DNA from: Mycolicibacterium porcinum | GTDB lineage: Bacteria > Actinomycetota > Actinomycetes > Mycobacteriales > Mycobacteriaceae | Assembly (NCBI GenBank): GCA_002086835.1 | Contig: MVIG01000002.1 | Location: 62,001 to 126,000, forward strand | DNA length: 64,000 nt | Reading direction: 5' to 3' | Part shown: piece after piece, positions 34,245 through 60,921 of the stretch | Layout: the number at the start of each line of letters is the position of its first letter | Numbering within the stretch: position 1 is the stretch's first letter | The notes under the pieces: model-generated | Database searches by the model: none | Seen by the model: the letters and a program-made list of their open reading frames with translations, nothing else | Told to the model about the DNA's origin: nothing | Position numbers and translations under genes: made by a program

Positions 34245-34271
34245 TGAACACTATCTGTTGATAGTGTCTCA
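34245..34271. promoter_or_regulatory. ACA-N14-TGT operator (TGAACA...TGTCTCA)
   Basis: Contains the perfect inverted repeat ACACTATC-TGTT-GATAGTGT (34248-34267). On the minus strand it reads TGAGACA-N14-TGTTCA, like sites at 47950, 57077 and 58780. It lies 57 bp upstream of the ACAD at 34328 and before the decayed gene. Confidence 0.7.
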
Positions 34272-34327
34272 TTCATCAATTCGAAGAACTACGCGGGTGC
34301 GTGGGCGGACGTGCCGAGAGGTGACTG

Positions 34328-35470
34328 GTGAAACGCTCGCTGTTCAATGAGGATCACGAGGCCTTCCGGGCAACGGTTCGGGCGTTCTACGCCGACCATG
34401 TTGTGCCGGATTACGGCGAGTGGGAACGCGCCGGAGCGCCTCCGAGGCACTTCTGGATCGAGGCCGGCAAGCTGGGCCTGCTCGGCACGCAGGTTCCGGA
34501 GGAGTTCGGCGGGGGAGGGCAGGACAGCTTCCTGTTCAACGCCGTGCTCACCGAGGAGTCTCAACGGGCCGGGATCGCCCTGGGTGGCCTGCGTGTCCAC
34601 ACCGACATCGCGATGCCCTACTTCCTCGACATCGCCACCGCCGAACAGCAGTCGCGGTGGCTCCCACGATTGGTATCCGGTGAGGCCGTCGCTGCGCTGG
34701 CGATGTCGGAACCGGCCGCCGGTTCCGATGTAAAAGCCTTGACGACCAAGGCCGTCCGTAACGGCGACAGCTATATCGTCAACGGCACCAAGACATTCAT
34801 CTCCAACGGCGCCAATGCCGACCTGATCATCACGGCGGTCAAGACCGACCCGGCGGCGGGTCGGAACGGGTTGAGCCTGCTCGTCATCGAGGGTGAGAGT
34901 CCCGGTCTGACGCGCGGACGCAAGCTGGAAAAGCTCGGACTCAAAGCGCAGGATCTGTCCGAGCTGAGCTTCGACGACGTCGTGGTGCCCGCGGAGAACC
35001 TGCTCGGCGAGGAGGGCGCCGGATTCGGCTATCTCACCGGGAATCTGGCCCAGGAACGGTTGTCCATCGCGGTGAACAGTCAGGCCGCTGCGGTCAAGGC
35101 GCTGTCCGACACCGTCGCGTACACCAAGGACCGCAAGGCCTTCGGTACCACGGTGGCCTCGTTCCAGAACACCAAGTTCGAGCTGGCCGCCTGTGCCGCC
35201 GACGTCGAGGCCGGTCAGTCCCTGCTGGACCGGGCGCTGCTGGCGCACGAGACCCGCGAGCTCACCGCGGCGGATGCCGCGATGGTGAAATTGTTCTGCA
35301 CGGAGTTGCAGGGCCGCGTCATCGACCGCTGCCTGCAACTACACGGCGGCTACGGCTACATGCTCGAATACCCGATAGCCAAGGCTTATGCCGATGCCCG
35401 GGTGTCGCGTATCTACGCGGGCTCCAGTGAGGTGATGAAGGTGATCATCGCGAAGTCGCTGGGACTGTGA
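34328..35470 (+). CDS. Acyl-CoA dehydrogenase
   Basis: 380 aa ACAD similar in length and layout to the one at 30326: LAMSEPAAGSDVKAL, NGTKTFISNGANADLII, LQLHGGYGYMLEYPIAKAY, IYAGSSEVMKVIIAKSLGL. GTG 34328 with GAGAGGTG upstream. First gene of an ACAD-thiolase-SDR operon (34328-37413), a self-contained beta-oxidation set under an ACA-N14-TGT box. Confidence 0.9.
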   Translation: MKRSLFNEDHEAFRATVRAFYADHVVPDYGEWERAGAPPRHFWIEAGKLGLLGTQVPEEFGGGGQDSFLFNAVLTEESQRAGIALGGLRVHTDIAMPYFLDIATAEQQSRWLPRLVSGEAVAALAMSEPAAGSDVKALTTKAVRNGDSYIVNGTKTFISNGANADLIITAVKTDPAAGRNGLSLLVIEGESPGLTRGRKLEKLGLKAQDLSELSFDDVVVPAENLLGEEGAGFGYLTGNLAQERLSIAVNSQAAAVKALSDTVAYTKDRKAFGTTVASFQNTKFELAACAADVEAGQSLLDRALLAHETRELTAADAAMVKLFCTELQGRVIDRCLQLHGGYGYMLEYPIAKAYADARVSRIYAGSSEVMKVIIAKSLGL

Positions 35471-36645
35471 TGAAAATGGAATCCGCCGTCATCATCGACG
35501 CCGTCCGCACGCCGATGGGCCGCGGCAAGCCCGGCGGCAGCTTGGCCGAGATCAACGCGGTCGATCTGCTGGCGCAGACGCTGTCCGCGTTGATGGCTCG
35601 AAACGATGTCGACCCGGCGGCCGTCGACGACGTGGTCACCGGCTGTGTGTCGCAAGCCGGTGAACAGGCCGGCACCCCAGGCCGATTCGCATGGCTGGCC
35701 GCAGGCCTTCCGGAACACGTGCCGGGTGTCACCATCGACCGACGGTGCGGATCCGGGCAACAGGCAGTCGACTACGCGGCCTGGGCCATCATGGCGGGCG
35801 CACAGGACATCGTGGTCGCCTGCGGGGTGGAGTCGATGAGCCGGGTCCCGATGGGGGTGGCCCGGATGGGTGTGGATCCCTTTGCGCCGGCTGCACACCG
35901 GTACCCGCCAGGGCTGGTGCCACAGGGCATTTCGGCCGAGCTCATCGCCGCGAAGTGGCGACTGAGCCGTGAGGACCAGGACCGTTACGCGGTCGAGTCG
36001 CACCACCGTGCCGCCGCCGCGGCGACTGCCGGTGCGTTCGACAATGAGATCGTCGCGGTCAAGGACGGCGATCGGGTGGTGAAAACCGACGAGACCATCC
36101 GGCCCGATACGTCGGAAGCCAAGCTCGCCGGCCTGAAGCCGGCCTTCTATGACGACGGCTACGCACAGCGCTTCCCTGACATCGCATGGACAGTGACCGC
36201 GGGTAACTCGTCGCAGATCACCGACGGGGCAGCGGCACTGTTGATCACCTCGGAATCCACCGCCAACCGGCTAGGGCTGACACCGCTGGCCCGGTTGCTC
36301 TCCTTCGCGACCGCCGCCGAGGATCCGGTGACCATGCTCGCCGCACCGATCCCGGCCGCCCGCAAGGCATTACAGCGCGCCGGTTTGGCCATTGACGACA
36401 TCGCACGCTACGAGGTGAACGAGGCCTTCGCCACGGTGCCACTGGCGTGGCAGCAAGAACTGGACGCCGACCCGGACAAACTCAACCCGGTCGGCGGGGC
36501 CATCGCACTTGGCCACCCGCTCGGTGCATCAGGGGCGCGGATCATGACCACTTTGGTGCACGGTCTGCGGCCAGGTGAGTACGGGCTACAGACCATGTGC
36601 GAGAACGGCGGTATGGCCAATGCAACGATCCTGCAACGACTTTGA
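35470..36645 (+). CDS. Thiolase / acetyl-CoA acyltransferase
   Basis: 391 aa thiolase: nucleophile C93 in IDRRCGSGQQAV, NEAFATVP, GGAIALGHPLGASGAR and the final CENGGMANA cysteine. All catalytic elements are intact. ATG 35470 overlaps the ACAD stop (TGATG); ATG 35476 is possible. It would cleave the 3-oxoacyl-CoA made by the SDR downstream. Confidence 0.92.
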   Translation: MKMESAVIIDAVRTPMGRGKPGGSLAEINAVDLLAQTLSALMARNDVDPAAVDDVVTGCVSQAGEQAGTPGRFAWLAAGLPEHVPGVTIDRRCGSGQQAVDYAAWAIMAGAQDIVVACGVESMSRVPMGVARMGVDPFAPAAHRYPPGLVPQGISAELIAAKWRLSREDQDRYAVESHHRAAAAATAGAFDNEIVAVKDGDRVVKTDETIRPDTSEAKLAGLKPAFYDDGYAQRFPDIAWTVTAGNSSQITDGAAALLITSESTANRLGLTPLARLLSFATAAEDPVTMLAAPIPAARKALQRAGLAIDDIARYEVNEAFATVPLAWQQELDADPDKLNPVGGAIALGHPLGASGARIMTTLVHGLRPGEYGLQTMCENGGMANATILQRL

Positions 36646-36657
36646 AAGGTCACATAT

Positions 36658-37413
36658 ATGAAGATCTCCGGTTCGGTCGCAGTCGTCACGGGGGGCGCGT
36701 CGGGTCTCGGGCTGGCTACGGTGCGGAGGTTGGCCAACGCCGGTGCGCGGGTGGTGATCCTCGATCTGCCCACCTCTGCCGGCCAGTCGATCGCCGACTC
36801 CCTGGGTGAAGGTGTGAAATTCGCCGCAGCTGACGTGACGGAAACCGATCAGGTCAGCTCGGCGCTCGACGCTGCGCAGCGGTTCGGCGACCTGCGGATC
36901 CTGGTGCACTGCGCCGGCAAGGGCGGCCCGGTGCGGGTCGTGGATCGCGACGGGAATCCAGGTTCACTGGAGACCTATGAACGCATCGTGCGCATCAACC
37001 TGATCGGCACCTTCAACATGCTGCGATTGTCCGCGGCGCGGATGGCGGCCAACGATGAGGTCGACGGCGAACGGGGTATCTGCGTGCTCACCGCATCCGT
37101 TGCAGCCTGGGAAGGCCAGATCGGTCAGATTCCCTACGCTAGTGCCAAGGGCGGCATCGTGAGCATGACGCTGGTTGCTGCCCGGGATCTCGCCACGAAG
37201 AAGGTTCGCGTCGTCTCCATCGCGCCGGGCTTGTTCGACACACCGATCCTGCCGGCATCGGCGCGTGACACGCTGGCGGCGACGGTTCCGCATCCGGCGC
37301 GCTTGGGAAACCCGGATGAGTACGCTGGATTGGCCGCACACATCATCGAGAATCAGATGCTCAACGGCGAAGTGATCCGGCTCGACGGCGCGTTGCGGAT
37401 GGCGCCGCGTTGA
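36658..37413 (+). CDS. Short-chain 3-hydroxyacyl-CoA dehydrogenase (HSD10-like)
   Basis: 251 aa [36 protein letters not shown], catalytic Ser in [10 protein letters not shown] and Y-x3-K in [10 protein letters not shown], then [12 protein letters not shown]. The N-terminus, DLPTSAG-type second strand and substrate segment match the type II hydroxyacyl-CoA dehydrogenase group (human HSD17B10-like). Completes the ACAD-thiolase-dehydrogenase trio. Convergent with a TetR gene. Confidence 0.88.
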
Positions 37414-37461: not shown

Positions 37462-37487
37462 GGCCGGCGTACGCCAGTCAGCCGGCC
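37462..37487. terminator. Hairpin between convergent SDR and TetR genes
   Basis: GGCCGGC and GCCGGCC arms (7 bp) around a 12-base loop that includes the TetR stop codon. No long T run. A shorter CAGCC/GGCTG stem sits just upstream. Plausible but unproven terminator. Confidence 0.4.
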
Positions 37488-38110
37488 TTCGCCTTCGCCT
37501 TCGCCTTGACGTTGCGCCGGCGCTGCGGCTTGGCGACGGCGTCGGTGGTCTCGACCTTGAACAGTGATGCCACCAATGCCGGCACCTCGTCTGATCGGCT
37601 GCCGGGCAGGAACAGCATCGACGTCAGGCTGCGCATGAACAGGTCACCCAATTGGCGCTTGGTCAGTGCACCGCTGGTGACCAGTGGTGATTCCTCGGCT
37701 GCCGGGCCGAGCGCATCGGTGACAACATCGACCAGCTTGGGGAAGGTGTCGCGGATGAATTCCAGGGTGAACTCGGGGGCGACATCCAGCATCTGGTTCC
37801 AGTCACCGCCCGCGGCACGGTAGGCGATGACCGTGTCGAGCACCACCTGCACACGCGCTTCAGGGGCCGGGTTGGCTTCGATCGCGGCCTTGAACGCGGC
37901 CGCGGCGCCGTCCTCGAAGTGCCGGCCGAGCGCGGCCAGCACCTCCTCCTTGCTGTTGAAGTATCGGTAGAAGGTTCCCCGCGCGATCTGCGACGATTCA
38001 CAGATATCACTTACCGAGAGCTTGCTAGCACCCTGCCTGCTCAGCGCTTTCATCGTGCCGGCAAGGATCTTCTGTACAGCCCTCTCCGCCCTTTGGTCGT
38101 CGATTGCCAT
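37478..38110 (-). CDS. TetR-family regulator with basic C-terminal tail
   Basis: 210 aa: helix-turn-helix ICESSQIARGTFYRYFNSKEEVL, typical effector domain, and a lysine/arginine-rich tail (RRRNVKAKAKAKAG) unusual for TetR proteins that may add nonspecific DNA contact. ATG 38110 has GAGGTGG seven bases upstream. Its recognition helix is close to that of the TetR at 58831. A TGAACA-N14-TGTTCT site stands upstream, so it probably regulates itself and shares operators with its paralog. Confidence 0.9.
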   Translation of the reverse strand: MAIDDQRAERAVQKILAGTMKALSRQGASKLSVSDICESSQIARGTFYRYFNSKEEVLAALGRHFEDGAAAAFKAAIEANPAPEARVQVVLDTVIAYRAAGGDWNQMLDVAPEFTLEFIRDTFPKLVDVVTDALGPAAEESPLVTSGALTKRQLGDLFMRSLTSMLFLPGSRSDEVPALVASLFKVETTDAVAKPQRRRNVKAKAKAKAG

Positions 38111-38134
38111 TCGCAAACCACCTCACAGACAACA

Positions 38135-38160
38135 TGAACACTGTGTTCACGTGGTGTTCT
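38135..38160. promoter_or_regulatory. ACA-N14-TGT operator with nested palindrome
   Basis: TGAACA-N14-TGTTCT directly upstream of the TetR gene. TGAACAC-T-GTGTTCA (38135-38149) is a perfect 7-1-7 palindrome nested in it. Confidence 0.65.
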
Positions 38161-38232
38161 ACTTGTCAATTATGTCCCACGGTGCCGCGGTTGTTGGGAT
38201 CCACAAGGGGGTTTTGTGAGGAAACCCACCCA

Positions 38233-39048
38233 TCACGGGGGGTTGCCGACTGTGTTACGCAACGTGCCGATACCTTCGATTTCGGCCTCGACGACGTCGC
38301 CCGGTTGTAGGAACCGGCCATCCTCCAAACCGACACCACAGGTCGTTCCGGTGAAAATGACATCGCCACAGCGTAGTTGGACCCGCTCATCGACGTAGGC
38401 AAGTATTTCCTCTACCGAAAACATCATGGAGCGGGTGTTGTCGGCTTGGCGCTCCTCGCCGTTGACGCGCAGCCTGATGTCGAGACTTGGTTGGCCGGCG
38501 TCACCGAGTTCGGTGGGCGTCACGATCCACGGCCCTACCGGGCAGGTGCCGTCGAGGCATTTCATACTGAACAGATCCAGTCCGCCCAGCCCCTTGGCAT
38601 CGCGTGCGCTCACATCGTTACCGATGGTGAAGCCGAGCAGGGGGTCGGTCGACGAGCCGCCCAAGACGACGACCAGCTCGATTTCGTAGTCGAGTTGGTT
38701 GGTGGTGGGTGGGTAACGAATGGTGCCGCCGGGCAGTGCCAGCGCCGAGTTGGGTTTGAGGAATGCGGTGGGGTGTTCGGGAGGCTCGGTTACGCCCAGC
38801 TTTTGGAGGTGCGCGAGATAATTGGCGCCTACACCAAACACTCGGGCCCCGGGATCGACGGGTGGTAGCTGTGTCAGCGCTCCGGTGTTCTCGGGATCCT
38901 GCAGTCGCAACCCTTCGGTGTCCTCGGCGGCCGCCGCTGCAGCCCATTCTGAGATATCGCCGTCGATGCGGTGCAGCTTCTCGCCTGCCGGGTCGATGAG
39001 CGCCCAGAACCCGGCGCCCGTGGAGTCGGCGAACCTTCCGATACGCAT
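38233..39048 (-). CDS. Fumarylacetoacetate hydrolase-family protein
   Basis: 271 aa. FAH fold with the divalent-metal acids in LDYEIELVVVLG (E, E) and NDVSARDAKG (D), plus a Gly-rich C-terminal FTGTTCGVG. Members hydrolyse or decarboxylate ring-cleavage products or act as isomerases. It ends a minus-strand operon (38233-45486) that begins with the Rieske dioxygenase, which suggests action on a ring-cleavage product. Abuts the amidohydrolase gene without a gap. Confidence 0.88.
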   Translation of the reverse strand: MRIGRFADSTGAGFWALIDPAGEKLHRIDGDISEWAAAAAAEDTEGLRLQDPENTGALTQLPPVDPGARVFGVGANYLAHLQKLGVTEPPEHPTAFLKPNSALALPGGTIRYPPTTNQLDYEIELVVVLGGSSTDPLLGFTIGNDVSARDAKGLGGLDLFSMKCLDGTCPVGPWIVTPTELGDAGQPSLDIRLRVNGEERQADNTRSMMFSVEEILAYVDERVQLRCGDVIFTGTTCGVGLEDGRFLQPGDVVEAEIEGIGTLRNTVGNPP

Positions 39049-40029
39049 TTAATTCCTTTCGAAGAGGTGGCCTACGTTGGCCTTCAGAATTTGGTGCAGG
39101 GCCTCTTCCGGCAGGCCGGCGTGCTGCAGGTAGCCAAAGGTGTCGGAGTAGCTTTCAAAACCGAGAAGCACCGGGTAATCACTGCCGGGAACGATGCGGT
39201 CGGCCCCGAACGCTTCGACCGCACACCGCAACGCGGCCGCCGAACCGTGACCGACCGTGTCGTAGAAGAACCGGCGCGCGGTTGTGCTGGGCTTTTCGGG
39301 CAGACCTGGCGCGCTGAGTGGAAGCTGATTGTCCAACCGGTTCAACAGCATCGGCAGTGCGCCGCCGAGATGGGGCACGATGAACCGGATATCGGGAAAT
39401 CGGTGCGGGATCTGACGCAGGATGAGGTGCAGTGCGATCGTGGTGTCCTCGAATACCGCGCCGGCCGTCGGTGCCAGACCCCACTGCGAGATCAGTGGCG
39501 AGCACAGTCCGTTGACGCACGGATGGAAGAACACCACCGCCTTGCGGCGGTCCAACTCAGCGTAGATCGGCTCGAACCGCTCGTCGGCCAGTGACTCATC
39601 GAAGCAGAAGCACTGCAGCGCGACACCGATCATGCCGAGGTCGTCGAGGCAGCGCCGCAGTTCGTGCAGTGATGCGTCGACGTGCGGCAGGGGTAGGGCG
39701 GCATACGCCGCCAATCGATCGGGCTGCTTGGCGACCATCTCCGCGTGGGCATTGTTCACGCACCGTGCCGCTCCGACCGCTTCGGATTCGCCGCTCAGAT
39801 AGGGCGCGAATATGGCTGAGAGCAACTGTCGCCGGATGCCGGCGTGGTTCATCATCGCGATTCGTCGGGTGATCGCGTGGTCGGTGTCCGTTACTGAGTC
39901 TGCATCGCCGACAAGCCCGGGGCCGTTCGTTCCATATCCGGGAATCGCGACGCCGGCATCGGCCAGGAGTTGATGGTAATGCGGGATGACCGCGTGCGCG
40001 TGGACGTCGACGGGGCCCTGGCTGATCAC
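39049..40029 (-). CDS. Amidohydrolase family protein (ACMSD-like)
   Basis: 326 aa with HxH in VDVHAHAVIPHY, then FFHPCVNG, FIVPHLGGALP and GSDYPVLLGF, the full metal-site series of the amidohydrolase-2/ACMSD group, whose members often decarboxylate. GTG 40029 overlaps the preceding CMD gene stop as GTGA. Among the five amidohydrolases here it keeps the canonical HxH, unlike those at 1837, 16638 and 62056. Confidence 0.85.
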   Translation of the reverse strand: MISQGPVDVHAHAVIPHYHQLLADAGVAIPGYGTNGPGLVGDADSVTDTDHAITRRIAMMNHAGIRRQLLSAIFAPYLSGESEAVGAARCVNNAHAEMVAKQPDRLAAYAALPLPHVDASLHELRRCLDDLGMIGVALQCFCFDESLADERFEPIYAELDRRKAVVFFHPCVNGLCSPLISQWGLAPTAGAVFEDTTIALHLILRQIPHRFPDIRFIVPHLGGALPMLLNRLDNQLPLSAPGLPEKPSTTARRFFYDTVGHGSAAALRCAVEAFGADRIVPGSDYPVLLGFESYSDTFGYLQHAGLPEEALHQILKANVGHLFERN

Positions 40030-40544
40030 TGCTCAACCTCAAACGCGCGAAATGCGTAGGCAAGCCGGCCGCTACCCACCATCAGGGCCGTGAACATGCC
40101 GAGTTCCACAGCCTGCTCGGTACTGAAATGCTCCAGGAGGGAATCGATTTCGTCGGGTCCGATGGACGGGTGATCGACCGCCAGTGCGGTGGCGAAGTTC
40201 AGTGCCGCCTGCTCTGCGGCACCGAACCGGCCATCGTCATCGGACAGGCAGGCGATGTCCTCCTCGGAGACGTCCTCGGACTTGCGCGAGGTCTGGCATA
40301 CCTGGCACTGGTTGAGCGCGGCGATCCGCAGCCTCACCAGTTCGAGCAGTCGGCTGGGCAGGATCGCGCTGTCGTAGAAGCGGCTCTGCAGCGTGATCTG
40401 GGCGTCGGCCAGTTCCGGACGACGCGCCCAGATTCGCGGCAGCACAGTCGAAGACAGCGCACCGCTGCGCTGCGCTCGGCTGATCGCTGCCGCGATATCC
40501 GGGGCAAGGTCCTCGTTGTCGATCGGTGCGATCAACGGCTCCAT
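40026..40544 (-). CDS. Carboxymuconolactone decarboxylase-family protein
   Basis: 172 aa of the AhpD/CMD fold with a CxxC (C80, C83 in NQCQVCQTSR) and the conserved His in the core around ALAVDHPSIG. CxxC members can act as alkylhydroperoxidases; others decarboxylate muconolactones. In this operon, after the VOC protein and a dioxygenase, a ring-fission-product role is possible. ATG 40544, no strong ribosome site, five bases after the previous stop. Confidence 0.85.
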   Translation of the reverse strand: MEPLIAPIDNEDLAPDIAAAISRAQRSGALSSTVLPRIWARRPELADAQITLQSRFYDSAILPSRLLELVRLRIAALNQCQVCQTSRKSEDVSEEDIACLSDDDGRFGAAEQAALNFATALAVDHPSIGPDEIDSLLEHFSTEQAVELGMFTALMVGSGRLAYAFRAFEVEQ

Positions 40545-40549
40545 GGAGA

Positions 40550-41506
40550 TCAGGCTTCGACGAATTCGATATGGGTTCCGTCGAGTTCGTTCGGATCGAC
40601 CTGTAGATAGGAGCCGCCGACCGCCGCACTGTCGTCGATTCGCCGGTACCGGGTCTGGCGAGCGTCGAGGTCGGCGGCCTTGGCGTCCAGGCCGTTGACC
40701 GCGATCCGGATGTAATACGGACCCGGACCCCAGGTAGCCAGATAACGCCCGGTCTCGCAGTCCCAGCGGGTCGGCTCGATCAGATCCAGCGTCGCACTGT
40801 GCCCGACGGTGAACGTGATTCGGGCTCGGCGATAGCCTTCCTGCTCGAACAGCTCGACGGGGCCGGATGCAACGATGTCCAGGTTGGTGTCGAGGCGCCG
40901 CAGCACTTCGTCCAGATCGCGAACAAGGAAGCTGCGGTTGACGATCCGGATCATCTGCCCCGGCTGCGGATCCCTCGGCTGCGGCGTTGTCTCCCCGAAC
41001 GTCTCCGGCGGCATCTGCAGCGGCGCGATCGGATGCCACTCCAGACACAACCCGCCGTCCACTATCGGGCGGTACCGCGGCTGCTCGGGGGTGGTGCCGA
41101 CCCAGAGCCGCTCCCATGCCAACCGGTCATCGATCGGAGCGATCCGGAACGGCAGACGACGCCGGTGCAGCTTCTCGATCAGTTCCTCGATGCTGTCGGT
41201 GGCGATCACGCAGGAGTGCGTCTTGATCGGCCGGAACCGGCCCTGGAACTCGTGCAGGCTGTCCAGGTATTCCGAGAAGATCGGGTCAACGGGCTTCTCG
41301 ACGTCCCAATGGTGCTGTGGCTCAAGGCGGGTGGGCGCGACGGCCAGCGACTTGTGCACACGTAGGAAATGCGCGATGTAGCCGTGGCTGTCGAAACCCT
41401 GCCGCCAGTTCGGGTGTTCCAGGATGCCGAGCCGCTCCACCAGCAGTTTGGTGTGGCCATCCGGGTCGGGAACCATCAGGTCCGCCGACAGAAGGAAATC
41501 AGACAT
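40550..41506 (-). CDS. VOC-superfamily protein, possible dioxygenase or isomerase
   Basis: 318 aa with the paired beta-alpha-beta-beta-beta units of the vicinal-oxygen-chelate fold. The first module includes GYIAHFLRVHKSLAV; the second contains MIRIVNRSFLVRDL, TVGHSATLDLIEPT and DGTHIEFVEA. Metal ligands cannot be assigned with certainty. It is distinct from the extradiol dioxygenase at 42562 in the same operon. Could be an accessory dioxygenase or isomerase. Confidence 0.7.
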   Translation of the reverse strand: MSDFLLSADLMVPDPDGHTKLLVERLGILEHPNWRQGFDSHGYIAHFLRVHKSLAVAPTRLEPQHHWDVEKPVDPIFSEYLDSLHEFQGRFRPIKTHSCVIATDSIEELIEKLHRRRLPFRIAPIDDRLAWERLWVGTTPEQPRYRPIVDGGLCLEWHPIAPLQMPPETFGETTPQPRDPQPGQMIRIVNRSFLVRDLDEVLRRLDTNLDIVASGPVELFEQEGYRRARITFTVGHSATLDLIEPTRWDCETGRYLATWGPGPYYIRIAVNGLDAKAADLDARQTRYRRIDDSAAVGGSYLQVDPNELDGTHIEFVEA

Positions 41507-41515
41507 TGCGCAGCC

Positions 41516-42535
41516 CTAAACCTTGATGTCCAGCAGCTTCGACGCGTTCTCGTAGCAGATTTTGTTGGTGTCGGCGTCGGAGACCTTCATGCCTTCCAAC
41601 AGATAGCCCCGGATCTGATCGCTGCCGTTGAAGTTGGTGCCATACAGAAGCCGATCGGCGCCGATGGAATCGATGACGGCCTGACGCATGTGCGGATCGT
41701 GGATCAGTGGATCGAAGTAGAAGTTCTCCAGGTAGCTCAGGAATGGCTTCTTGTTCAGCCCGTCGGACAGGTTGCCCGCGGTCGCATCGAAGCGTCCGAT
41801 CTGATACGGCACAAACCCGCCGCCGTGCGTGATGCACACGGTCAGATCCGGCACCTTGTCCAGCACACCGCCACAGATCAAGTTCCAGAACGCGACCGTC
41901 TCGTCGTAGCAGAAGCCGACGATCGAGGTGGTCTCGAACTTGTCCTTGGACGGGTCTTCCCAACCGACGGACTGGTTGTAGCCGTGCACGTAGACCGGGA
42001 CGTTCAACTCGGCGCAGCGCTTCCACACCGGAAGCAGTGCTTCGTCGTGGAATTCGTGTCCGCCGAGGTTCACCCCGCCGGTGTTGACTCCGCGGGCGCC
42101 GAGTTTGACGGCACGGTCGAGTTCCCTGAGTGCCTCGTCGGGGTTCTGCAATGGCAGTGGGGCCCACCAGAACAACCGGTCCGGCGCCTGAGCGCAGTAC
42201 TTGGCGAACTCGTCGTTGACCATCCGGCACCACTTGGTGCCGAAGTCGCCGGTGTGGTACATGAAAGCGTGCGCGGGGACGGACATCACGGCCTTGTCGA
42301 TCCCGCGCTCGTCCATCTGTGCCAACCGGTTCGGCGCCTTCATCCACTCCAGCGGTGACGAATCTCCGCCGGCGGCGTGTGCCGCCGCGGCTTCCTTGGT
42401 GCCCAGCGTCAGCTGCCATTTGCCGATGGTCATGCGTTGCATGCCCTCGGCGTCCGGCGCGAACCGCGGGCCCCAGAACGGGTCGAAGTCGAGCATCTTC
42501 GGCTCGATGTGGTGGGCGTGCAGATCGATAATCAC
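41516..42535 (-). CDS. Amidohydrolase family protein
   Basis: 339 aa. The N-terminal IIDLHAHHIEP contains the HxH motif; VYVHGYNQSV, CITHGGGFVPYQIGRF and YGTNFNGSD supply the remaining metal and core motifs. GTG 42535 has AAAGG 12 bases upstream and starts the protein right before the HxH motif; the longer frame upstream is not supported. Probably acts on a ring-cleavage product from the extradiol dioxygenase encoded next to it. Confidence 0.85.
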   Translation of the reverse strand: MIIDLHAHHIEPKMLDFDPFWGPRFAPDAEGMQRMTIGKWQLTLGTKEAAAAHAAGGDSSPLEWMKAPNRLAQMDERGIDKAVMSVPAHAFMYHTGDFGTKWCRMVNDEFAKYCAQAPDRLFWWAPLPLQNPDEALRELDRAVKLGARGVNTGGVNLGGHEFHDEALLPVWKRCAELNVPVYVHGYNQSVGWEDPSKDKFETTSIVGFCYDETVAFWNLICGGVLDKVPDLTVCITHGGGFVPYQIGRFDATAGNLSDGLNKKPFLSYLENFYFDPLIHDPHMRQAVIDSIGADRLLYGTNFNGSDQIRGYLLEGMKVSDADTNKICYENASKLLDIKV

Positions 42536-42561
42536 AATTGGTACAACCTTTCTGAAGATCT

Positions 42562-43482: not shown

Positions 43483-43519
43483 GAGTTGGTCTCCTGTGTC
43501 TGGTCGAAGTTGGGTGCCG

Positions 43520-45574: not shown

Positions 45575-45589
45575 GTCTATGGGAGTCGC

Positions 45590-53991: not shown

Positions 53992-54777
53992 TCACAGAGC
54001 CGGCGGCTTGCTGTTGTAACGGGGTAAATGCTGGCCGCCGTCGACGTGGATGGTCTCGCCGGTAACGTAGCGGCTGTCGTCGCTGGCCAGGAACACCGCG
54101 ACCGGCGCGATATCGGTCTCCGGATCACCGACCCGGCCCAGCGGATTGGCCGCGGCTGACATCTCGGCGAAGCCCGGAATGGCTTGGGAAAGTTGGTCGA
54201 AGACCGTGCCCTTGGCCGCCGGGGCAATGGCATTGACCAACACGTTGTAGCGTCCCCACTCGGCGGCCGCGGACCGGGTCAGTCCACGGATGGCTTCTTT
54301 GGTCAGGTTGTAATCGGCGTGCAGCCAGGCTGCCGCCTCGGCGTCGATCGAGTAGAAGTTGATCACCCGGCCGCCGCCGTTGGCCTGAAAGTGGGGGAGC
54401 GCGGAGCGCATGGCCCACCACGTCGCCCACAGCCCGGTGCGCAGCAGGCCGTCCAGGTCTTCGTCGCTCTTGTCTTCCAGTGGGACATTGGGGGACAACG
54501 CAATTGCGTTGTTGACCAGTACGTCGAGGCGGCCGAAGACCTCGACTGCGGCGACGATCGCCGACTCGATCTGCGCTTTGTCGCCGACATCGGTCCGGAT
54601 GAAGACTGCCCGTCCACCCGCGCTGTCGATGTCCGCGGCGACCTGCTCACCCTCGGTGGGGTCGAGTTCGGCGACGACGACTGCCGCACCCTCGGCAGCG
54701 AAGCGGCGGGCGATACCCCGGCCGATGCCCTGCCCTGCCCCGGTGACTACCGCGACTTTGCCGTCGAGTCGGCCCAC
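53992..54777 (-). CDS. Short-chain dehydrogenase/reductase
   Basis: 261 aa SDR: VAVVTGAGQGIGRGIARRFA, NNAIALSPNVPLED, catalytic Ser in INFYSIDAEAA and Y-x3-K in ADYNLTKEAIR, VTGETIHVDGGQHLP. NNAIA replaces the usual NNAG. GTG 54777 starts inside the FAH gene, overlapping it by 31 bp on the same strand. Third gene of a P450-FAH-SDR operon. Confidence 0.88.
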   Translation of the reverse strand: MGRLDGKVAVVTGAGQGIGRGIARRFAAEGAAVVVAELDPTEGEQVAADIDSAGGRAVFIRTDVGDKAQIESAIVAAVEVFGRLDVLVNNAIALSPNVPLEDKSDEDLDGLLRTGLWATWWAMRSALPHFQANGGGRVINFYSIDAEAAAWLHADYNLTKEAIRGLTRSAAAEWGRYNVLVNAIAPAAKGTVFDQLSQAIPGFAEMSAAANPLGRVGDPETDIAPVAVFLASDDSRYVTGETIHVDGGQHLPRYNSKPPAL

Positions 54778-55784
54778 GACGCTTCCTCTCCGGCCGCTTC
54801 GGCGGCAACGAAACGGTTGCGCAGCACCCCGAGCCCCTCGATCTCGAGTTCCACCACCTGACCCATCTCGGGAAACCGGCCCAACTCCAGGCCGCAGCCG
54901 CCGCCGACTGTGCCCACGCCGATCACGTCGCCGGCCCGCAGCGTCTCATCACGACTGATGTGACTGATGATCTCGGCGACCGAATAATGCGACGTATCGG
55001 TGCTGCCGCGGCTCCACTCCACGCCGTCGACGCGCGCGACCATCGCGTTCGCCGCTGTCGGGTCGAAGTCTTCCGGCGTGACCAGATACGGACCCAGTAC
55101 GTTGCCGCCGTCGAAATCCTTGCCCTTCGCCGGACCGAGAAAGGCCTTCATCTCCGCCAATTGGATATCGCGACAGGACACGTCGTTGAACACCGTGTAC
55201 CCGGCGATGTGCCGGTCCGCGGTGGCGACCGGGATATCCCGACCAGGCGTGCCGATCACGACGGCGAACTCCAGCTCGTAGTCCATCCGGGTCTCGCCTG
55301 TCGGGCGCCGCACCGGCACACCGCTTCCGACCACGCTGAACGGGTTGCCCTTGTAGTAGGTCGGATGCCGGTACCACTGTTGGGGAACTCCGCGGGGGCC
55401 GGAGCAGTTGGCGACGTGCGTCTCGAAGGCGGAACAGTCCCGCAGTGACGACGGGCGTTCCACCGGCGAGAGTACGCGGACTTCATCGAGCCGATAGGTC
55501 AGCCGCTGATCCAGAACGTTTCGGTCCAGCTGCGCCAGATCGGCTTGCGCGTTGCCGATCTCGTCGAGCACGTGGGTGCGCACCGGGCCGTTGCCTAGGA
55601 ACGCCACCATGTCCGGCGGAACGACCACTTCCGCCATCGGACCGATTCGTTCGGGTGACATCCGGTCGGCGATGAGGTGGGAGTACGCGGCCTTGAGGTC
55701 AATCAACGTGTCGTCACCGGTTGCCAGACCGAGCCGGGTGATCGGTCCGGTCGGTCCGAGGACGCTGAAGGTCGCCAGCTTCAC
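54747..55784 (-). CDS. Fumarylacetoacetate hydrolase-family protein (long form)
   Basis: 345 aa, larger than the two other FAH proteins here. MDYELEFAVVIG and FNDVSCRDIQLAEMKAFLG supply the metal residues; the Cys in NDVSCRD replaces the usual Ala. GTG 55784 overlaps the P450 stop as GTGA. Linked to a P450, so it may act on a product formed after hydroxylation rather than on extradiol fission products. Confidence 0.87.
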   Translation of the reverse strand: MKLATFSVLGPTGPITRLGLATGDDTLIDLKAAYSHLIADRMSPERIGPMAEVVVPPDMVAFLGNGPVRTHVLDEIGNAQADLAQLDRNVLDQRLTYRLDEVRVLSPVERPSSLRDCSAFETHVANCSGPRGVPQQWYRHPTYYKGNPFSVVGSGVPVRRPTGETRMDYELEFAVVIGTPGRDIPVATADRHIAGYTVFNDVSCRDIQLAEMKAFLGPAKGKDFDGGNVLGPYLVTPEDFDPTAANAMVARVDGVEWSRGSTDTSHYSVAEIISHISRDETLRAGDVIGVGTVGGGCGLELGRFPEMGQVVELEIEGLGVLRNRFVAAEAAGEEASWADSTAKSR

Positions 55785-57046
55785 GGGCGGTCCCAGACCA
55801 ACGGCAAAGTCGATATGCCCGCAACCGAACTGGCGTGCCGTGTGACAGTGACGCCATCCTTGATCCGGTACTCCGGGATACGCCGGTGCCAGTGCTCGTA
55901 GGCGATCGCGAGTTCGATACGGGCCAGATGCGATCCGGCGCACCGGTGGGGTCCGACGCCGAACGCGACATGCCTACTGCGGCCGCGGTCGAAGCGGATT
56001 TCATCGGGATTGTCGAACACATCCGGATCACGCCCTGCCGCAACCGTATTGATCAGCACCCGATCGCCCTTGCGGATCAGCTGGCCACCGATCTCGACAT
56101 CCTGGGTGGCGGTGCGCCCGGCCAGGATGAGCGATTCGACGCGCAGCATCTCTTCCACGGCCAGCGGGATGGTTTCCGGGTCGGTCAGTTGACGCCGAAG
56201 GTCAACACGCTGTGCGAAATGCAGGAAGTGCAGGCCGAGCGAGCTGGCGACGGTGTCCAGACCTGCGAGGAACAGCAGGTAGGTCATATCGAGGATTTCC
56301 TCGTCGGTGAGCTTGTCACCGTCGACCTCCGCGCCGTGCAGGGTGCTGATGATGTCCTCGCCCGGTTGCTGCTTGCGTGCCGCGAGCAACTCGGTCAGGT
56401 ACTCGTTGAGTTCCTGTCCGGCGCGGGCGCGAATCTGTCCGTCGGGGTCGTCGTGGTGGCCGTGCAGCAGGATGTTCTTCCAATTATGGAAGCGGGGCGC
56501 CTGGTCCAACGGCAATCCCATCATCTCGGTGAAGATGACGGTTGGCAGTTGCTCGGCGAAATCGGTGACGAAGTCGCACTCGCCATCCTCGATGAACCCG
56601 TCGATCAACGAGTCGGCGACATCTCGGATGCGTCCCTCGATGGCCTTCATCCGTCGCGGGGAGAACACCGGCATCAGCAGCGTCCGATACCGCGACTGGA
56701 CCGGCGGATCGACCTCCATGGGCAGCAGGGGACGCTTCTGACCGAGGCCCGCCGGTATGTTGACCGACGGGGCGGTGGTGAACAGCTCGTAGTGCTGCAT
56801 CGCGTAATGCACTGTCTCGTAACTCGACAACGTCCAGAAGCCACCGTGCTGATCGCTGTGCGCCACGGGGCACTGGGTGCGCATCTGTGCGTACACGGCG
56901 TCGAAGCATTCGCCCAGTCGGGGGTCGTGATGATCGAATTGGTGGACCAGTCGCTCGATGAGTGCGTTGTCGTGGACGCTCAACTCAGAAGGGGTGATTG
57001 CCCCGTCGCTTCGCTCGCCCTGAACATCGTCGACGTGCTGGGTCAT
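55781..57046 (-). CDS. Cytochrome P450
   Basis: 421 aa soluble bacterial P450: I-helix LFLAGLDTVASSL with the acid-alcohol pair DT, E-x2-R in AVEEMLR, and the heme-binding FGVGPHRCAGSHLAR with the axial Cys at 369. It needs ferredoxin electrons; candidates are the small ferredoxins at 20956 and 47696 and the FprB-like reductase at 17844. Leads the P450-FAH-SDR operon and is divergent from the OB-fold/lipid-transfer pair across a TGAGACA-N14-TGTTTA box. Confidence 0.93.
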   Translation of the reverse strand: MTQHVDDVQGERSDGAITPSELSVHDNALIERLVHQFDHHDPRLGECFDAVYAQMRTQCPVAHSDQHGGFWTLSSYETVHYAMQHYELFTTAPSVNIPAGLGQKRPLLPMEVDPPVQSRYRTLLMPVFSPRRMKAIEGRIRDVADSLIDGFIEDGECDFVTDFAEQLPTVIFTEMMGLPLDQAPRFHNWKNILLHGHHDDPDGQIRARAGQELNEYLTELLAARKQQPGEDIISTLHGAEVDGDKLTDEEILDMTYLLFLAGLDTVASSLGLHFLHFAQRVDLRRQLTDPETIPLAVEEMLRVESLILAGRTATQDVEIGGQLIRKGDRVLINTVAAGRDPDVFDNPDEIRFDRGRSRHVAFGVGPHRCAGSHLARIELAIAYEHWHRRIPEYRIKDGVTVTRHASSVAGISTLPLVWDRP

Positions 57047-57076
57047 GCTCTCCCTCTCGGACCGGACGCTTGGTAA

Positions 57077-57103
57077 TGAGACACTTTAGACATAGTTTGT
57101 TTA
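57077..57103. promoter_or_regulatory. TGAGACA-N14-TGTTTA operator
   Basis: In the 107-bp divergent gap between the P450 and the OB-fold gene. Left arm TGAGACACT is shared with the sites at 47950 and 34245. It likely controls both operons. Confidence 0.65.
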
Positions 57104-57153
57104 TAGTGAAGCGGATTGCATCGCCAGTCAACCGTCCGGAGGTAAGACGTATC

Positions 57154-57567
57154 GTGACTCAACCCGCAGGCCCCTTGCCGCGGCTCACCCCGGAATCGCA
57201 GTTCTTCTGGACCGCGCACGATGATGGCGCGCTGTGGATGCTGAGGAACCCTCGCACCGGCGAGTGGATGCATCCCCCGCCGCCTGATGACCCGGCCACC
57301 GGCGAAGAGTTGACGCCGGCTCCCTTGAGTGGCAAGGGCACCGTCTTCACGTTCACGATCAACCATCAGGCATTCCTGCCGGCAGTGCCGGTTCCCTACG
57401 TGGTGGCCATCGTTGAACTCGCTGAACAGCAGGGATTGCAGCTGACCACCCGGATCGTGAACTGCGATCCGGTCGACGTGCGGATCGGTATGCCCGTCTC
57501 GGTGGTCTTCGAGGACCACGACGGGGTACGCCTGCCGTTCTTCGAACCCGATGAAAGCGGTGAATAG
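57154..57567 (+). CDS. DUF35-type OB-fold protein without zinc-ribbon cysteines
   Basis: 137 aa. The OB-fold part is clear (GKGTVFTFTINHQAFLP, VPYVVAIVELAEQQGLQLTT). In place of the CxxC...CxxC zinc ribbon it has LRNPRTGEWMHPPPPDDP, with no Cys. GTG 57154 has CCGGAGG about ten bases upstream. Followed after two bases by a lipid-transfer-type thiolase gene, the same pairing in which DUF35 proteins activate Ltp2 aldolases. Second such cysteine-free OB-fold protein in the window (see 8990). Confidence 0.78.
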   Translation: MTQPAGPLPRLTPESQFFWTAHDDGALWMLRNPRTGEWMHPPPPDDPATGEELTPAPLSGKGTVFTFTINHQAFLPAVPVPYVVAIVELAEQQGLQLTTRIVNCDPVDVRIGMPVSVVFEDHDGVRLPFFEPDESGE

Positions 57568-57569
57568 CG

Positions 57570-58754
57570 TTGCCGATCACCAAGTTCGAACACTCGGCCA
57601 TCATCTCGGGAATTGGCCGCTCGGATATCGGCCGACGACTCGGCCGCTCGGAGTTGTCGCTGACGGTGCAGGCTGCGCGGTCGGCGATCGCTGACGCCGG
57701 GCTGGAGCCGTCCGATATCGACGGCCTGATCGCCTGGCCGGGGGAGTACCCGGCGCCGGCCGGTTTCACCGGCCCGAGCCCTTGGCGGCTCAAGGATGCG
57801 CTCCGGCTGAACCTGAACTGGCATATGGCCGCCCAAGAAGGCCCCGGTCAGTTGGCCGCGGTCATGTCGGCCATCATGGCGGTGCACTCCGGCGTGTGTC
57901 GCCACGTGCTTGTCTACCGAGCCTGCGCCGAATCGACGGGCCAGAGTGGCGGCGGTCGCACCTCGGTCAACCCCATCGACGACGGCGGAATCACCGGCTA
58001 TCTGCAATGGCTACGGCCTTTCGGCGCGGTGTCGGCGGCCAACTGGGTGGCCCTGAACTATCAGCGCTATCTGCAGACAACCGGTACTTCGCGTGCACAA
58101 GTCGCGTGGCTGCCGATCAATCAGCGGCGCAACGCCGCGCTCAATCCTGCCGCGATCTACACCGATCCGCTGACGGTCGAGGAGTACCTGTCGGCCCGAA
58201 TGATCAGCGACCCCGTGTGCCTGTATGACTGCGACGTCCCAGCCGACGGCGCCGTGGCGCTGGTGGTGTCCGCTGTCGAGGTCGCTGGTGATACACCGCG
58301 CCCGGTTCGCATCGAGGCGATCGGCTCGGCGGTCGGACGGCCGTCGGGGTGGGATCAGTGGCGCTCACCGACCGACATGGCCGCCACCGATGCCGCCGCG
58401 CACCTGTGGACCCGCACCGATCTCACCCCCGCCGACGTGGACGTCGCCGCACTCTACGACGGGTTCAGCTTCCTGACCATAGTCTGGCTCGAAGTGCTGG
58501 GTTTCTGTAAGCCCGGAGAGGCCGCTGATTTCGTGGACGGTGGCAAGCGCATCGCATTGGACGGCGAGCTGCCGCTGAACACCGGCGGCGGCCAGTTGTC
58601 GTCGGGCCGTCTGCATGGCTACGGGCATCTGTTCGAGGCCTGCACCCAGCTGCGCGGGGATGCCGAGGAGGCCCGGCAGGTGAGTGCCGCCGAGGTGGCC
58701 GTGGTCGCCGCGGGCGGTGGTCCGCACGGGGGTTGTCTGCTGCTGACCCGCTGA
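57570..58754 (+). CDS. Thiolase-like lipid-transfer protein (Ltp2/SCPx-type)
   Basis: 394 aa. Shares with the protein at 11241 the start GIGRSDIGRRLGRSEL, VCLYDCDVPADG (from 216), ALYDGFSFLTIVWLEVLGF and NTGGGQLSSGRLHGYGHLFEA. Probably a retro-aldolase or thiolase-like cleavage enzyme that works with the OB-fold protein just upstream. The TTG start is close to the previous stop, and the ribosome site is weak (GAAAGCGG), suggesting translational coupling. Confidence 0.86.
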   Translation: MPITKFEHSAIISGIGRSDIGRRLGRSELSLTVQAARSAIADAGLEPSDIDGLIAWPGEYPAPAGFTGPSPWRLKDALRLNLNWHMAAQEGPGQLAAVMSAIMAVHSGVCRHVLVYRACAESTGQSGGGRTSVNPIDDGGITGYLQWLRPFGAVSAANWVALNYQRYLQTTGTSRAQVAWLPINQRRNAALNPAAIYTDPLTVEEYLSARMISDPVCLYDCDVPADGAVALVVSAVEVAGDTPRPVRIEAIGSAVGRPSGWDQWRSPTDMAATDAAAHLWTRTDLTPADVDVAALYDGFSFLTIVWLEVLGFCKPGEAADFVDGGKRIALDGELPLNTGGGQLSSGRLHGYGHLFEACTQLRGDAEEARQVSAAEVAVVAAGGGPHGGCLLLTR

Positions 58755-58779
58755 ATCATCTCGTCCGTTTCTAGGCCAA

Positions 58780-58805
58780 TGAGACAAATGGGCATATATT
58801 GTTCA
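58780..58805. promoter_or_regulatory. TGAGACA-N13-TGTTCA operator-like box
   Basis: Same arms as the 14-spacer sites but the spacer is 13. It stands 26 bp before the TetR gene at 58831, suggesting autoregulation by the protein that binds the other sites. Confidence 0.6.
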
Positions 58806-58830
58806 AATTGACCGATGATTGGGGACTTGA

Positions 58831-59400
58831 ATGGCAGCCAAGGACGACACCCTGTCGCGCATCCTGGACGGCACGCTGCTGGCACTGGCACGCCGCGGGG
58901 TGCGCAAGCTGTCCATGAGTGATGTCGGAATCCAGGCGGGCATCTCCCGGGGAACGTTGTACCGGTACTTCAAGAGCAAAGAAGAACTGCTGGACGCGAT
59001 CGCCCAGCATGTGGAAAAAGGTCTGCTCGACGAGTTGGTGCAGGCCGTTGGCCGTCGCCCGGATCTTCGCGTTCGCGTGCAGGTCGTCGTGGAGGCGATG
59101 GTGTACTTCAGTAAGACCCATCCCGAAGCGATTCAGGTTATCGCCGTTGAGCCGGGGTTCGGGATCGACTTCATCCGGCAGGTGTTCCCCGAATTCGTTT
59201 CGGTGTCAGAGCAATTGCTCAGCCCGGCACTGGAGCTCACCTCGACGGTGCGGTCCGGCGCGATGAGCAGTGCCGAGCTGTCCGAGCTGATTCTGCGGGT
59301 TGCGGCGTCGACGTTCTTCATTCCGGCCGACGATCTCGACGAGATTCCCCGTGCGATCGCCGCGTTGCCGTGTCTGCAGCAGGCGCGGCTCGCAGGCTAG
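58831..59400 (+). CDS. TetR-family regulator, candidate regulator of the ACA-N14-TGT set
   Basis: 189 aa: SMSDVGIQAGISRGTLYRYFKSKEELL helix-turn-helix region, with recognition residues like those of the TetR at 37478 (SISxARGTFYRYFNSKEE pattern). Effector domain from about 60 onward. The TetR gene is preceded by a TGAGACA box and convergently overlaps the aldehyde dehydrogenase gene by 4 bp. Confidence 0.9.
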   Translation: MAAKDDTLSRILDGTLLALARRGVRKLSMSDVGIQAGISRGTLYRYFKSKEELLDAIAQHVEKGLLDELVQAVGRRPDLRVRVQVVVEAMVYFSKTHPEAIQVIAVEPGFGIDFIRQVFPEFVSVSEQLLSPALELTSTVRSGAMSSAELSELILRVAASTFFIPADDLDEIPRAIAALPCLQQARLAG

Positions 59401-60863
59401 GGCTTGGCGGCTCCGGCCGGCCAGTTCACGCTCTTGGTCTCGAAGTACTCGGCGTAGCCGGCCTCGCCCCACTCGCGACCGATGCCGCTGTGCTTGTAGC
59501 CGCCGAACGGGCTGTGCGGATTGGGGCCCCCGCCGCCACCGTTGATGTGCACCATGCCGGTGCGCAACCGGGACGCGATCGAGTAGCCGTGCGCCGGATC
59601 GGCCGCCCATACCGAGCCCGACAAACCGTACGGTGAGTCGTTGGCAATGGTGACCGCCTCATCGTCGGTCCGATAGCCGATCACCACGCCGACCGGACCA
59701 AAAATCTCTTCGCGTGCCACCCGCATCGCGTTATCCGCCTTCACGAAAAGCGCGGGATCGACGTAGTAGCCGCGTGGCTGCCCCTTGGTGCGCCCGCCCC
59801 CGAATGCCAGCTTGGCGCCCTCGGTTTGGCCGAGTTCGACGTACGACAACACCCGGTCCCGTTGACGCGCGCTGATCAGCGGTCCCATCTCGGTGCCCTC
59901 GTCGGACGGATCGCCGACCGAAATCGATTCCAATCGCGCCAGCATCCGCTCGACCAGTTCGTCGTGAATATCGTTGTGCGCCAATATCCGGGTGAATGCA
60001 GCGCAGCCTTGGCCGGAGTGCCGGGTGAAGTTCAGCACCGCATGCGCTGCGGCCGCATCCAGATCTGCATCCGGCGTCACGATGTTCACCGATTTGCCAC
60101 CGAGTTCGAGCACCACCTTCTTCACCGTCGAAGCCGCTTGCGCCAGAATCTGTTTACCCACCATGTCCGATCCCGTGAAGGACACCATGTCCACCCGGGG
60201 ATCGGTGGTCAGCAGATTGGACACGTCGATGTCACCGCTGACGACGTTCAATACGCCGGGTGGCAAGCCGGCTTCCAACGCAGCCTCGCCGAGCACCAGC
60301 GCGGACAGCGGTGTCAGCGGCGAAGGCCGCAGCACCACGGTGCACCCAGCGGCCAGTGCCGGACCGACCTTGAACAGGTTGAGCAGCGTGGGGTAGTTGA
60401 AGGCGGTGATCGCCGAGACCACGCCAACCGGTTCGCGCAGCACCACACCTTGGCCGATACCGAGCCCGAAGGTTGGGGACTGCGGGACTGCGGTGGCAAA
60501 GGTCGGCATCACGCGGTCGACCAGGTCGCGCAGATGAACCAGCGGCACTCCGACTTGGCCGGTGCGGGCGAGCTGCACCGTGGCACCGGCCTCGGCCACC
60601 GCAAGTTCGACAAGGCGATCGGATCTGGCTGTCACCGCGTCGGCGAACGTGGCCATCAATGCCCGTCGTTCGCCCTCCGGTAGCCGTGGCCACGGACCCT
60701 CGTCGAATGCCCGGCGTGCCACCGAAATTGCTTGGTGTGCATCGGCTATCGACGCCTGCTCGGCGTGCGCGAAAATTTCTTCGGTCGCCGGATTCTCGAC
60801 GGCCAACACTGTGCCGTGGCCGCCACTGCGCCACTGGCCGTCGATGAACAGTTCGGTGCGCAT
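59397..60863 (-). CDS. NAD-dependent aldehyde dehydrogenase
   Basis: 488 aa ALDH with the nucleophile C287 in HSGQGCAAF, the general base E253 in VLELGGKS and the nucleotide fold FTGSDMVGKQI. The conserved lysine of the usual KPSP loop is Arg here (LRPSPLTPL, R179), which might alter cofactor binding. ATG 60863 was chosen over an in-frame start ten codons upstream. It oxidises an aldehyde to an acid, perhaps after the P450 or SDR steps. Confidence 0.92.
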   Translation of the reverse strand: MRTELFIDGQWRSGGHGTVLAVENPATEEIFAHAEQASIADAHQAISVARRAFDEGPWPRLPEGERRALMATFADAVTARSDRLVELAVAEAGATVQLARTGQVGVPLVHLRDLVDRVMPTFATAVPQSPTFGLGIGQGVVLREPVGVVSAITAFNYPTLLNLFKVGPALAAGCTVVLRPSPLTPLSALVLGEAALEAGLPPGVLNVVSGDIDVSNLLTTDPRVDMVSFTGSDMVGKQILAQAASTVKKVVLELGGKSVNIVTPDADLDAAAAHAVLNFTRHSGQGCAAFTRILAHNDIHDELVERMLARLESISVGDPSDEGTEMGPLISARQRDRVLSYVELGQTEGAKLAFGGGRTKGQPRGYYVDPALFVKADNAMRVAREEIFGPVGVVIGYRTDDEAVTIANDSPYGLSGSVWAADPAHGYSIASRLRTGMVHINGGGGGPNPHSPFGGYKHSGIGREWGEAGYAEYFETKSVNWPAGAAKP

Positions 60864-60894
60864 GCCGACTCCTCCGCCTACCCGATAGTGCAAT

Positions 60895-60921
60895 TAAGAC
60901 AGAATCTGTCTATTCTGAACA
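60895..60921. promoter_or_regulatory. TAAGACA-N14-TGAACA box with nested palindrome
   Basis: Divergent gap between the aldehyde dehydrogenase and the SDR. AGACAGA-A-TCTGTCT (60897-60911) is a perfect 7-1-7 palindrome inside it. The right arm is TGAACA rather than TGTTCA, so it is the least certain member of the set. Confidence 0.5.

Follow-up and report, generated by a model that had tools for sequence, protein, structure and literature searches.

Repressors of the TetR family normally bind palindromes such as those considered here in the ligand-free state and dissociate with ligand. Sites of this kind were analyzed in a stretch of 64,000 nucleotides from Mycolicibacterium porcinum (assembly GCA_002086835.1, contig MVIG01000002.1, positions 62,001 to 126,000 of the forward strand; this whole stretch is called the window, and its numbering is used below unless a contig is named). 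An earlier note had placed one operator class at seven promoters of catabolic and tetR genes in this stretch; together with those located further along the contig, 12 sites are described here. They are quite probably four-half-site operators of a TetR-family repressor that would control a single regulon for ring and side-chain degradation, with about 11 promoter regions over 47 kb.

TetR-controlled catabolic regulons are of a known kind, and several described systems resemble this locus in part. Long operators are described for two TetR proteins that bind as paired dimers, namely QacR, with a 28 bp operator and two dimers (PMC4482099), and CprB, a dimer of dimers on 22 bp (PMC4150764), although the half-sites and genes differ. 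A mycobacterial precedent for inner and outer repeats is Rv3160c of M. tuberculosis, described as a TetR repressor encoded next to a putative oxygenase gene, for which the inner and outer inverted repeats and the -10 region are all required (PMC7810876); on a comparison by description only, it differs in its repeats of 12 and 8 bp and its one operon. KstR and KstR2, of the cholesterol regulons, are reported as TetR repressors of mycobacterial ring and side-chain catabolism with 14 bp operators, those of KstR2 lying between divergent genes (PMC3068626). However, these operators fit none of the 12 sites, with at least two of eight and at least three of ten letters wrong. EdcR of Caenibius tardaugens is described as an estrogen TetR repressor of a P450/extradiol pathway, with a palindrome over the -10 region (PMC8700777). 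Its operator, TnnCnnTACnAnTnGTAnnGnnA, is not matched by the 12 sites (at least four of 12 letters wrong), and it has a TetR_C_11 ligand domain, whereas TetR_N is the sole domain match, at E <= 1e-5, of TetR1 and TetR2, two TetR proteins encoded in the window. The best sequence match of TetR2 in the PDB (E of 2.3e-9) is Mce3R, which is described as a double-TetR chain with nonpalindromic sites (PMC11667970), whereas TetR1 (212 amino acids) and TetR2 (189 amino acids) have one TetR_N stretch each. Among the matches listed in literal-string and topical searches of the open-licence literature, no description of the present four-half-site operator was found.

Form and conservation of the operators

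A matrix scan located 37 bp sites of one class at all seven places named in the earlier note. The sites exist, cluster in this region, lie at promoters, are conserved relative to their flanks and recur beside ferredoxin, Rieske and TetR genes in another phylum. The full matrix was built from 11 site families in three species, with the sites at 45544, 80640 and 38134 kept out of training. Two genomes of the same genus, G085 (TetR2 91% identical) and G086 (71%), in which the cluster has the inverted order, were used for comparison; in the promoter alignments the site blocks are conserved and the flanks have diverged, a pattern termed a footprint below. The seven sites, with their full-matrix scores, are as follows.

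34235..34271, minus strand: operator of the operon for acyl-CoA dehydrogenase (ACAD), thiolase and short-chain dehydrogenase/reductase (SDR) (34328-37413, plus strand); score 31.3; footprint, site identity with G085/G086 0.95/0.70 against 0.78/0.30 in the flanks
38134..38170, no strand assigned: variant operator upstream of tetR1 (37478-38116, minus strand); score 14.7, rank 12 of 505,964, outside training
45544..45580, no strand assigned: operator where the operon for Rieske alpha/beta and extradiol dioxygenase begins (44083-45558, minus strand, and downstream); score 28.3, outside training; footprint
47950..47986, plus strand: operator in the gap between the genes for ferredoxin (47696-47917, minus strand) and FAH hydrolase (48028-48855, plus strand); score 35.6; footprint
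57077..57113, plus strand: operator in the gap between the P450 gene (55781-57046, minus strand) and the OB-fold/Ltp pair (56998-57567 and 57570-58754, plus strand); score 38.1; footprint
58779..58815, plus strand: operator upstream of tetR2 (58831-59400, plus strand); score 26.9; footprint, 0.97/0.89 against 0.42/0.35 in the flanks
60886..60922, plus strand: operator in the gap between the genes for aldehyde dehydrogenase (59397-60893, minus strand) and SDR (60953-61789, plus strand); score 36.4; footprint

From the promoter alignments with relatives, the operator was refined to a 29 bp quasi-palindrome, ACA-N6-ACA-N5-TGT-N6-TGT, with four half-sites (H1-H4), the inner of which frequently read TAGACA or TTGAACA. 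The ACA-N14-TGT core on which the earlier note relied corresponds to H1 with H3 or to H2 with H4 of this operator and occurs in seven of the 12 sites. As the defining feature it fails: the window holds nine copies against 8.42 expected from shuffles (the earlier estimate being about 16 in 64 kb), and at such a chance frequency the core alone is no evidence. Among the seven places, it is absent at 60886 and at 58779, where the spacer is 13 bp; moreover, the copy noted at 45555 is out of register, the one in register being at 45548. Similarly, the arm TGAGACA is present at the four sites for which it was claimed but is no signal in itself, with further copies at 6401 and 61699 and six in total against 6.61 expected. 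In the site at 58779 the outer left half-site is displaced by 1 bp.

The description of the sites as lying in short intergenic gaps was roughly right. Eight of the 12 fall between open reading frames (ORFs) as called by script, and three overlap the beginning of an ORF (its first 100 bp), where the start was probably called too early; the actual start of the Rieske alpha ORF (called 44083-45558) is uncertain, and that of the OB-fold ORF (called from 56998) is probably further downstream. The remaining site, at 80640, overlaps the 3' end of a tetR ORF and is upstream of a DoxX gene.

In ungapped comparison with G086, all seven families with an orthologue there have identities of 0.70-0.89 in the site and of 0.20-0.47 in the flanks. 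The numbers of these families in which the successive columns are invariant over the three species are 7, 7, 7 for H1, 5, 7, 6 for H2, 7, 7, 7 for H3 and 6, 7, 4 for H4; thus, H1 and H3 are invariant throughout, and H2 and H4 in most families. Beyond these genomes, the best match to a 24 kb query among named plasmid records was from Mycobacterium branderi (78% over 37% of the query).

The concentration of the sites was assessed over 505,964 contig positions. A symmetric 37 bp matrix was trained only on the four TGAGACA sites, its register being picked after footprinting and seven other sites being kept out of training; it ranked its own four sites first and the seven other strong sites 5-11. 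With the full matrix, the top 11 contig positions all lie at 34.2-80.7 kb, with scores of 23.5 (the site at 80640) to 38.1, followed by the tetR1 site and then by a match at 12.7; the maximum in ten Markov-simulated sequences of 506 kb was 17.8. When families were left out one at a time, the number of contig positions that equalled or exceeded the score of the omitted site was 3-10 for eight own families and 11 for tetR2.

A refined pattern, CANWWTNNACANNNNNTGTNNAWWNTG, was used for the genome scan that the earlier note had proposed. It was designed on the cluster sites, so the reversed control matters. With at most two mismatches, all eight matches in the 6.96 Mb genome lie between C15:96240 and 141342, and the reversed pattern gave none; with at most three, 11 of 27 matches lie in the cluster, against 14 reversed matches genome-wide. 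The site at 57077 is the sole match without mismatch. Two other patterns had been rejected: a first full-palindrome pattern, tuned to one site, gave 23 matches against 19 in the control, and the inner palindrome TWRGACA-N5-TGTYYWA was too loose genome-wide (38 matches forward and 43 reverse, compared with 96 and 89 in the reversed control), so that the longer pattern was adopted. Among 396 genomes of the genus, matches of CANWWTNNACANNNNNTGTNNAWWNTG with at most two mismatches number eight in the source genome, nine in G085 and 13 in G086, and at most five in each of the other 393. Matches in G086 beyond the syntenic stretch are at C55:8997-9023, C222:79482 and C222:85891, and the regulon may be larger in that genome.

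The genome scan agrees with the single regulon proposed earlier, with four corrections. The form of the operator is different, the regulon extends about 17 kb beyond the window, a third paralogous TetR protein is encoded outside the window and the tetR1 site is weaker. As the tetR1 site is a weaker variant, an operator shared by both TetR proteins is only partly borne out.

Recurrence in another phylum and the candidate repressor

The best five plasmid records for the Rieske alpha subunit are Novosphingobium resinovorum pSA2, two from Croceicoccus marinus, one from Massilia putida and one from Caulobacter. The first four of these are also the four best records for TetR2; the Caulobacter record (a 50% Rieske relative) is not among the eight plasmid records matched by TetR2. 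In pSA2, the TetR gene lies within the Rieske operon, and this operon is opposite a ferredoxin gene. The actinobacterial matrix gave a single outstanding match in pSA2 (31.4) and in Croceicoccus (34.5), in both cases in the ferredoxin/Rieske gap. At the Caulobacter locus the best score was 10.5, within the simulated range (to 14.7), and no site was recognized. On its TetR side, the Massilia locus has scores of 18.3 and 15.1, against simulations reaching 12.0. This plasmid (L165/L166) also carries Rieske, ferredoxin, thiolase/OB-fold, FAH, IclR, DUF1302/DUF1329 and MMPL genes together, a content that we take to be reminiscent of diterpenoid (dit) clusters.

In the family of a Sphingomonas genome, the TetR gene is present in ten of 397 genomes. 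Twelve sphingomonad loci were scanned, of which ten span the ferredoxin/Rieske gap; two of these (L164 and L185) are the same record, leaving nine distinct loci. The best site lies in the gap at all nine, with scores of 21.5-37.5 on the actinobacterial matrix, and the four half-sites are near-complete in the sphingomonad sites. One locus (L178) has an additional match of 16.9 elsewhere, above its 20 simulations, and at the two loci that a contig end cuts off short of the gap no site exceeded simulation (9.9 and 11.9). A matrix made from the nine sites was applied to the 505,964 contig positions in return, giving rank 1 for the Rieske, 2 for the ACAD, 3 for the DoxX and 4 for the ferredoxin site, 5 for 68934, 6 for 65458, 8 for 79311 and 9 for the P450 site. 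Since the nine sites had been found with the actinobacterial matrix, this reverse test depends on the forward one; the position in the gap is independent.

Because distant bacteria have the same switch beside related genes, this is probably one repressor system that has spread between very different bacteria. The evidence leans slightly towards an old TetR-operator pair, preserved while the protein fell to about 35% identity, that was transferred between Actinobacteria and Alphaproteobacteria along with the genes of a Rieske oxygenase of two subunits and of its ferredoxin, and that in the actinobacterial cluster was duplicated into TetR paralogues reading variants of one four-half-site operator and coordinating the 47 kb regulon. 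A run of catabolic genes lacking assignment would thereby become one testable regulon for which both an operator and a candidate repressor are specified, and pathway membership could be proposed for genes beyond the window. The operator is usable as a search key, retrieving the matching promoter in another phylum; a TetR-operator pair conserved across phyla is a good case for the matching of recognition helices and operators, and possibly a starting point for a sensor of a ring compound.

Three paralogous TetR proteins are encoded in the region.

58831..59400, plus strand: TetR2, candidate main repressor; TetR_N (PF00440)
37478..38116, minus strand: TetR1, paralogous repressor; TetR_N (PF00440)
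66071-66808, outside the window (L075:2071-2808): TetR3, third paralogue; PF00440; 52% to TetR2

TetR1 and TetR2 are 39% identical over 172 amino acids, in agreement with the paralogy claimed earlier, and the recognition helix of TetR3 is altered (ISRATLYEYF as opposed to ISRGTLYRYF). The structure model of TetR2 has an all-helical TetR fold (pLDDT 83.9), with 231 PDB matches at E <= 0.001, the top one being Rv0078 with DNA. The TetR2 family is the likely binder of the operators, and TetR1 perhaps overlaps with it there. Upstream regions of tetR genes were scored with a matrix lacking the tetR2 and Rieske-2 families; 12 of 18 tetR2-like and seven of 15 tetR1 genes, the own genes included, exceeded all 423 control gene upstreams. 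The cluster has two more tetR genes, at 48888 and 53132, whose upstreams do not exceed these controls; the second (53132-53974), which has an HTH_3 domain fused to a TetR domain (TetR_C_24), has no such operator upstream. Within the 300 bp upstream of tetR2 in G085 and G086, it is the P450 site that scores best; the actual tetR2 site reaches 26.6 and 25.0 with the full matrix, whose training includes that site. A matrix from six tetR2-upstream sites placed ten catabolic sites at ranks 2-12, and one from six tetR1-upstream sites at ranks 2-681. The former test is not fully independent, because three of its sites, the distant ones, had been identified with the catabolic-site matrix; a matrix from the three close tetR2 sites only gave ranks 2-52. 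Furthermore, one genome (G018) has no tetR1 match at 1e-30, yet has strong sites at a ferredoxin gene (30.6 and 24.0) and at a tetR2-like gene (20.3). A search of genome contigs with TetR1, in which records close to the source genome were possibly left out, found 53 distant loci whose best segments are 24-60% identical, chiefly in the helix-turn-helix region; in a phylum-wide search with TetR2 over 396 drawn genomes, only the source genome was matched.

TetR2 and its close relatives would bind the operators, probably as two dimers each by analogy with QacR and CprB, an arrangement that a length of 29 bp with four half-sites would suit. The bound repressor would cover the promoter and keep the catabolic genes, as well as tetR2, from being transcribed, and a pathway intermediate would free the repressor, switching on all operons together. 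TetR1 probably regulates its own gene via the variant site and may share the catabolic sites in part.

Alternative explanations and contrary results

Several regulators are encoded in the region, and the sites could be bound by another of them (AsnC-type at 75578, HTH_3-TetR at 53132, TetR at 48888, SbtR-like TetR at 71247 or TetR at 80657), with TetR1 and TetR2 as targets only. The retention of the AsnC-type gene near tetR1 in G333, G038 and G241 would agree with this. However, no site lies upstream of 48888 or 53132, the site-bearing sphingomonad loci have in common, among eight genes mapped, a TetR2-like gene within the Rieske operon, the rest being genes for enzymes and a ferredoxin, and Caulobacter, which lacks a TetR2-like match, also lacks a site; another binder is thus unlikely. 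It is less likely still that an alternative sigma factor recognizes the blocks as promoter elements. They are AT-rich and directly upstream of genes, and a conserved TTGAC is seen by eye upstream on the P450 side, but they have a dyad symmetry that is most pronounced in sphingomonads (9 to 14 of 18), lie between divergent genes and ahead of tetR genes and recur in another phylum.

The inner core has the same letters as the type II motif of the unrelated repressor NiaR in Thermotogales, ACA-N5-TGT, for which no outer half-sites are described (PMC7713382). A NiaR-type (3H domain) repressor would leave the outer half-sites unaccounted for; the genome has no 3H-domain protein (PF02829) in a search that matched two of 14 control genomes, Bacillus subtilis and Thermotoga maritima, and such a repressor is hardly conceivable here. 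Almost no weight can be given, finally, to seven look-alikes chosen by eye in 64 kb. Both ACA-N14-TGT and TGAGACA do occur at chance frequency, but for the extended operator chance is refuted by the matrix ranks, the genome scan, the counts in 396 genomes, the footprints and the sphingomonad tests.

Several results nevertheless weigh against four-half-site operators bound by TetR2. The link between TetR2 and the operators is drawn from gene neighbourhood. Symmetry over the whole 37 bp is weak at the ACAD, ferredoxin and tetR2 sites (shuffle P of 0.32, 0.38 and 0.34). The tetR1 site reached only rank 25 with the four-site matrix, its full-matrix score is inside the simulated range and thus not significant alone contig-wide, and its flanks are 0.90 identical between the source genome and G085, so that this pair yields no footprint. 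With the sphingomonad matrix, the sites of alcohol dehydrogenase (ADH) and aldehyde dehydrogenase ranked 14 and 17, that of tetR1 23 and that of tetR2 itself 283. The sites in Massilia, which has a 29% TetR relative, are only moderate, with the Rieske side (13.5) inside its simulated range. At least one match of CANWWTNNACANNNNNTGTNNAWWNTG with at most two mismatches occurs in 228 of the 396 genomes of the genus, so that single matches are meaningless. TetR3 has no site within 300 bp upstream, and no site above control was present in six of the 18 tetR2-like and eight of the 15 tetR1 upstreams, perhaps in part owing to wrong starts or contig ends.

Target genes and extent of the regulon

The proposed targets in the window were assigned by Pfam.

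34328..37413, plus strand: operon for acyl-CoA dehydrogenase, thiolase and SDR
38233..45558, minus strand: operon for Rieske alpha and beta subunits, extradiol dioxygenase, amidohydrolases and FAH hydrolase
47696..47917, minus strand: [Fe-S] ferredoxin (Fer4_15, Fer4_13)
48028..48855, plus strand: FAH-family hydrolase
53992..57046, minus strand: run of P450, FAH-family protein and SDR
56998..58754, plus strand: pair of ChsH2-type OB-fold protein and Ltp-type thiolase
59397..61789: aldehyde dehydrogenase (minus strand) and SDR (plus strand)

Five further operators, continuing to about 80.7 kb, bring the total to 11 strong sites and the weaker tetR1 site.

65458: operator upstream of the Rieske gene 64243-65460
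68934: operator upstream of the Rieske gene at 69028
77008: operator upstream of ADH
79311: operator upstream of the second P450 gene
80640: operator upstream of DoxX and enoyl-CoA hydratase genes

Taken together, the genes for Rieske and extradiol enzymes, FAH hydrolases, CoA-transferase, P450 and the OB-fold/Ltp pair suggest a polycyclic substrate with a side chain. By its gene content, the cluster may resemble a dit-type diterpenoid pathway. An estrogen-type pathway is suggested by a sole hint, the indolepyruvate-oxidoreductase-like gene at 71938 (POR domain), with no further support. None of the ten proteins compared with NCBIfam received a name above the cutoff. The gene at 71938-75426 encodes a POR/DUF6537 protein of 1162 amino acids and is accompanied by the AsnC-type regulator; the pair is also found near the tetR1 orthologues in G333, G038 and G241.

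Two APH/EcKL-type kinase genes lie in the cluster (49605-51799), where none of the top matches in the contig places an operator. About 600 bp of DNA without assigned genes separates TetR3 (66071) from the Rieske gene 64243-65460. Divergent from the ACAD gene, an apparently broken NAD(P)-binding (NmrA-like) gene was read by eye at 34095-34226; the counterpart position in G085 holds an NmrA-like ORF, 57% to the NmrA-like gene at 67187 in the source genome.

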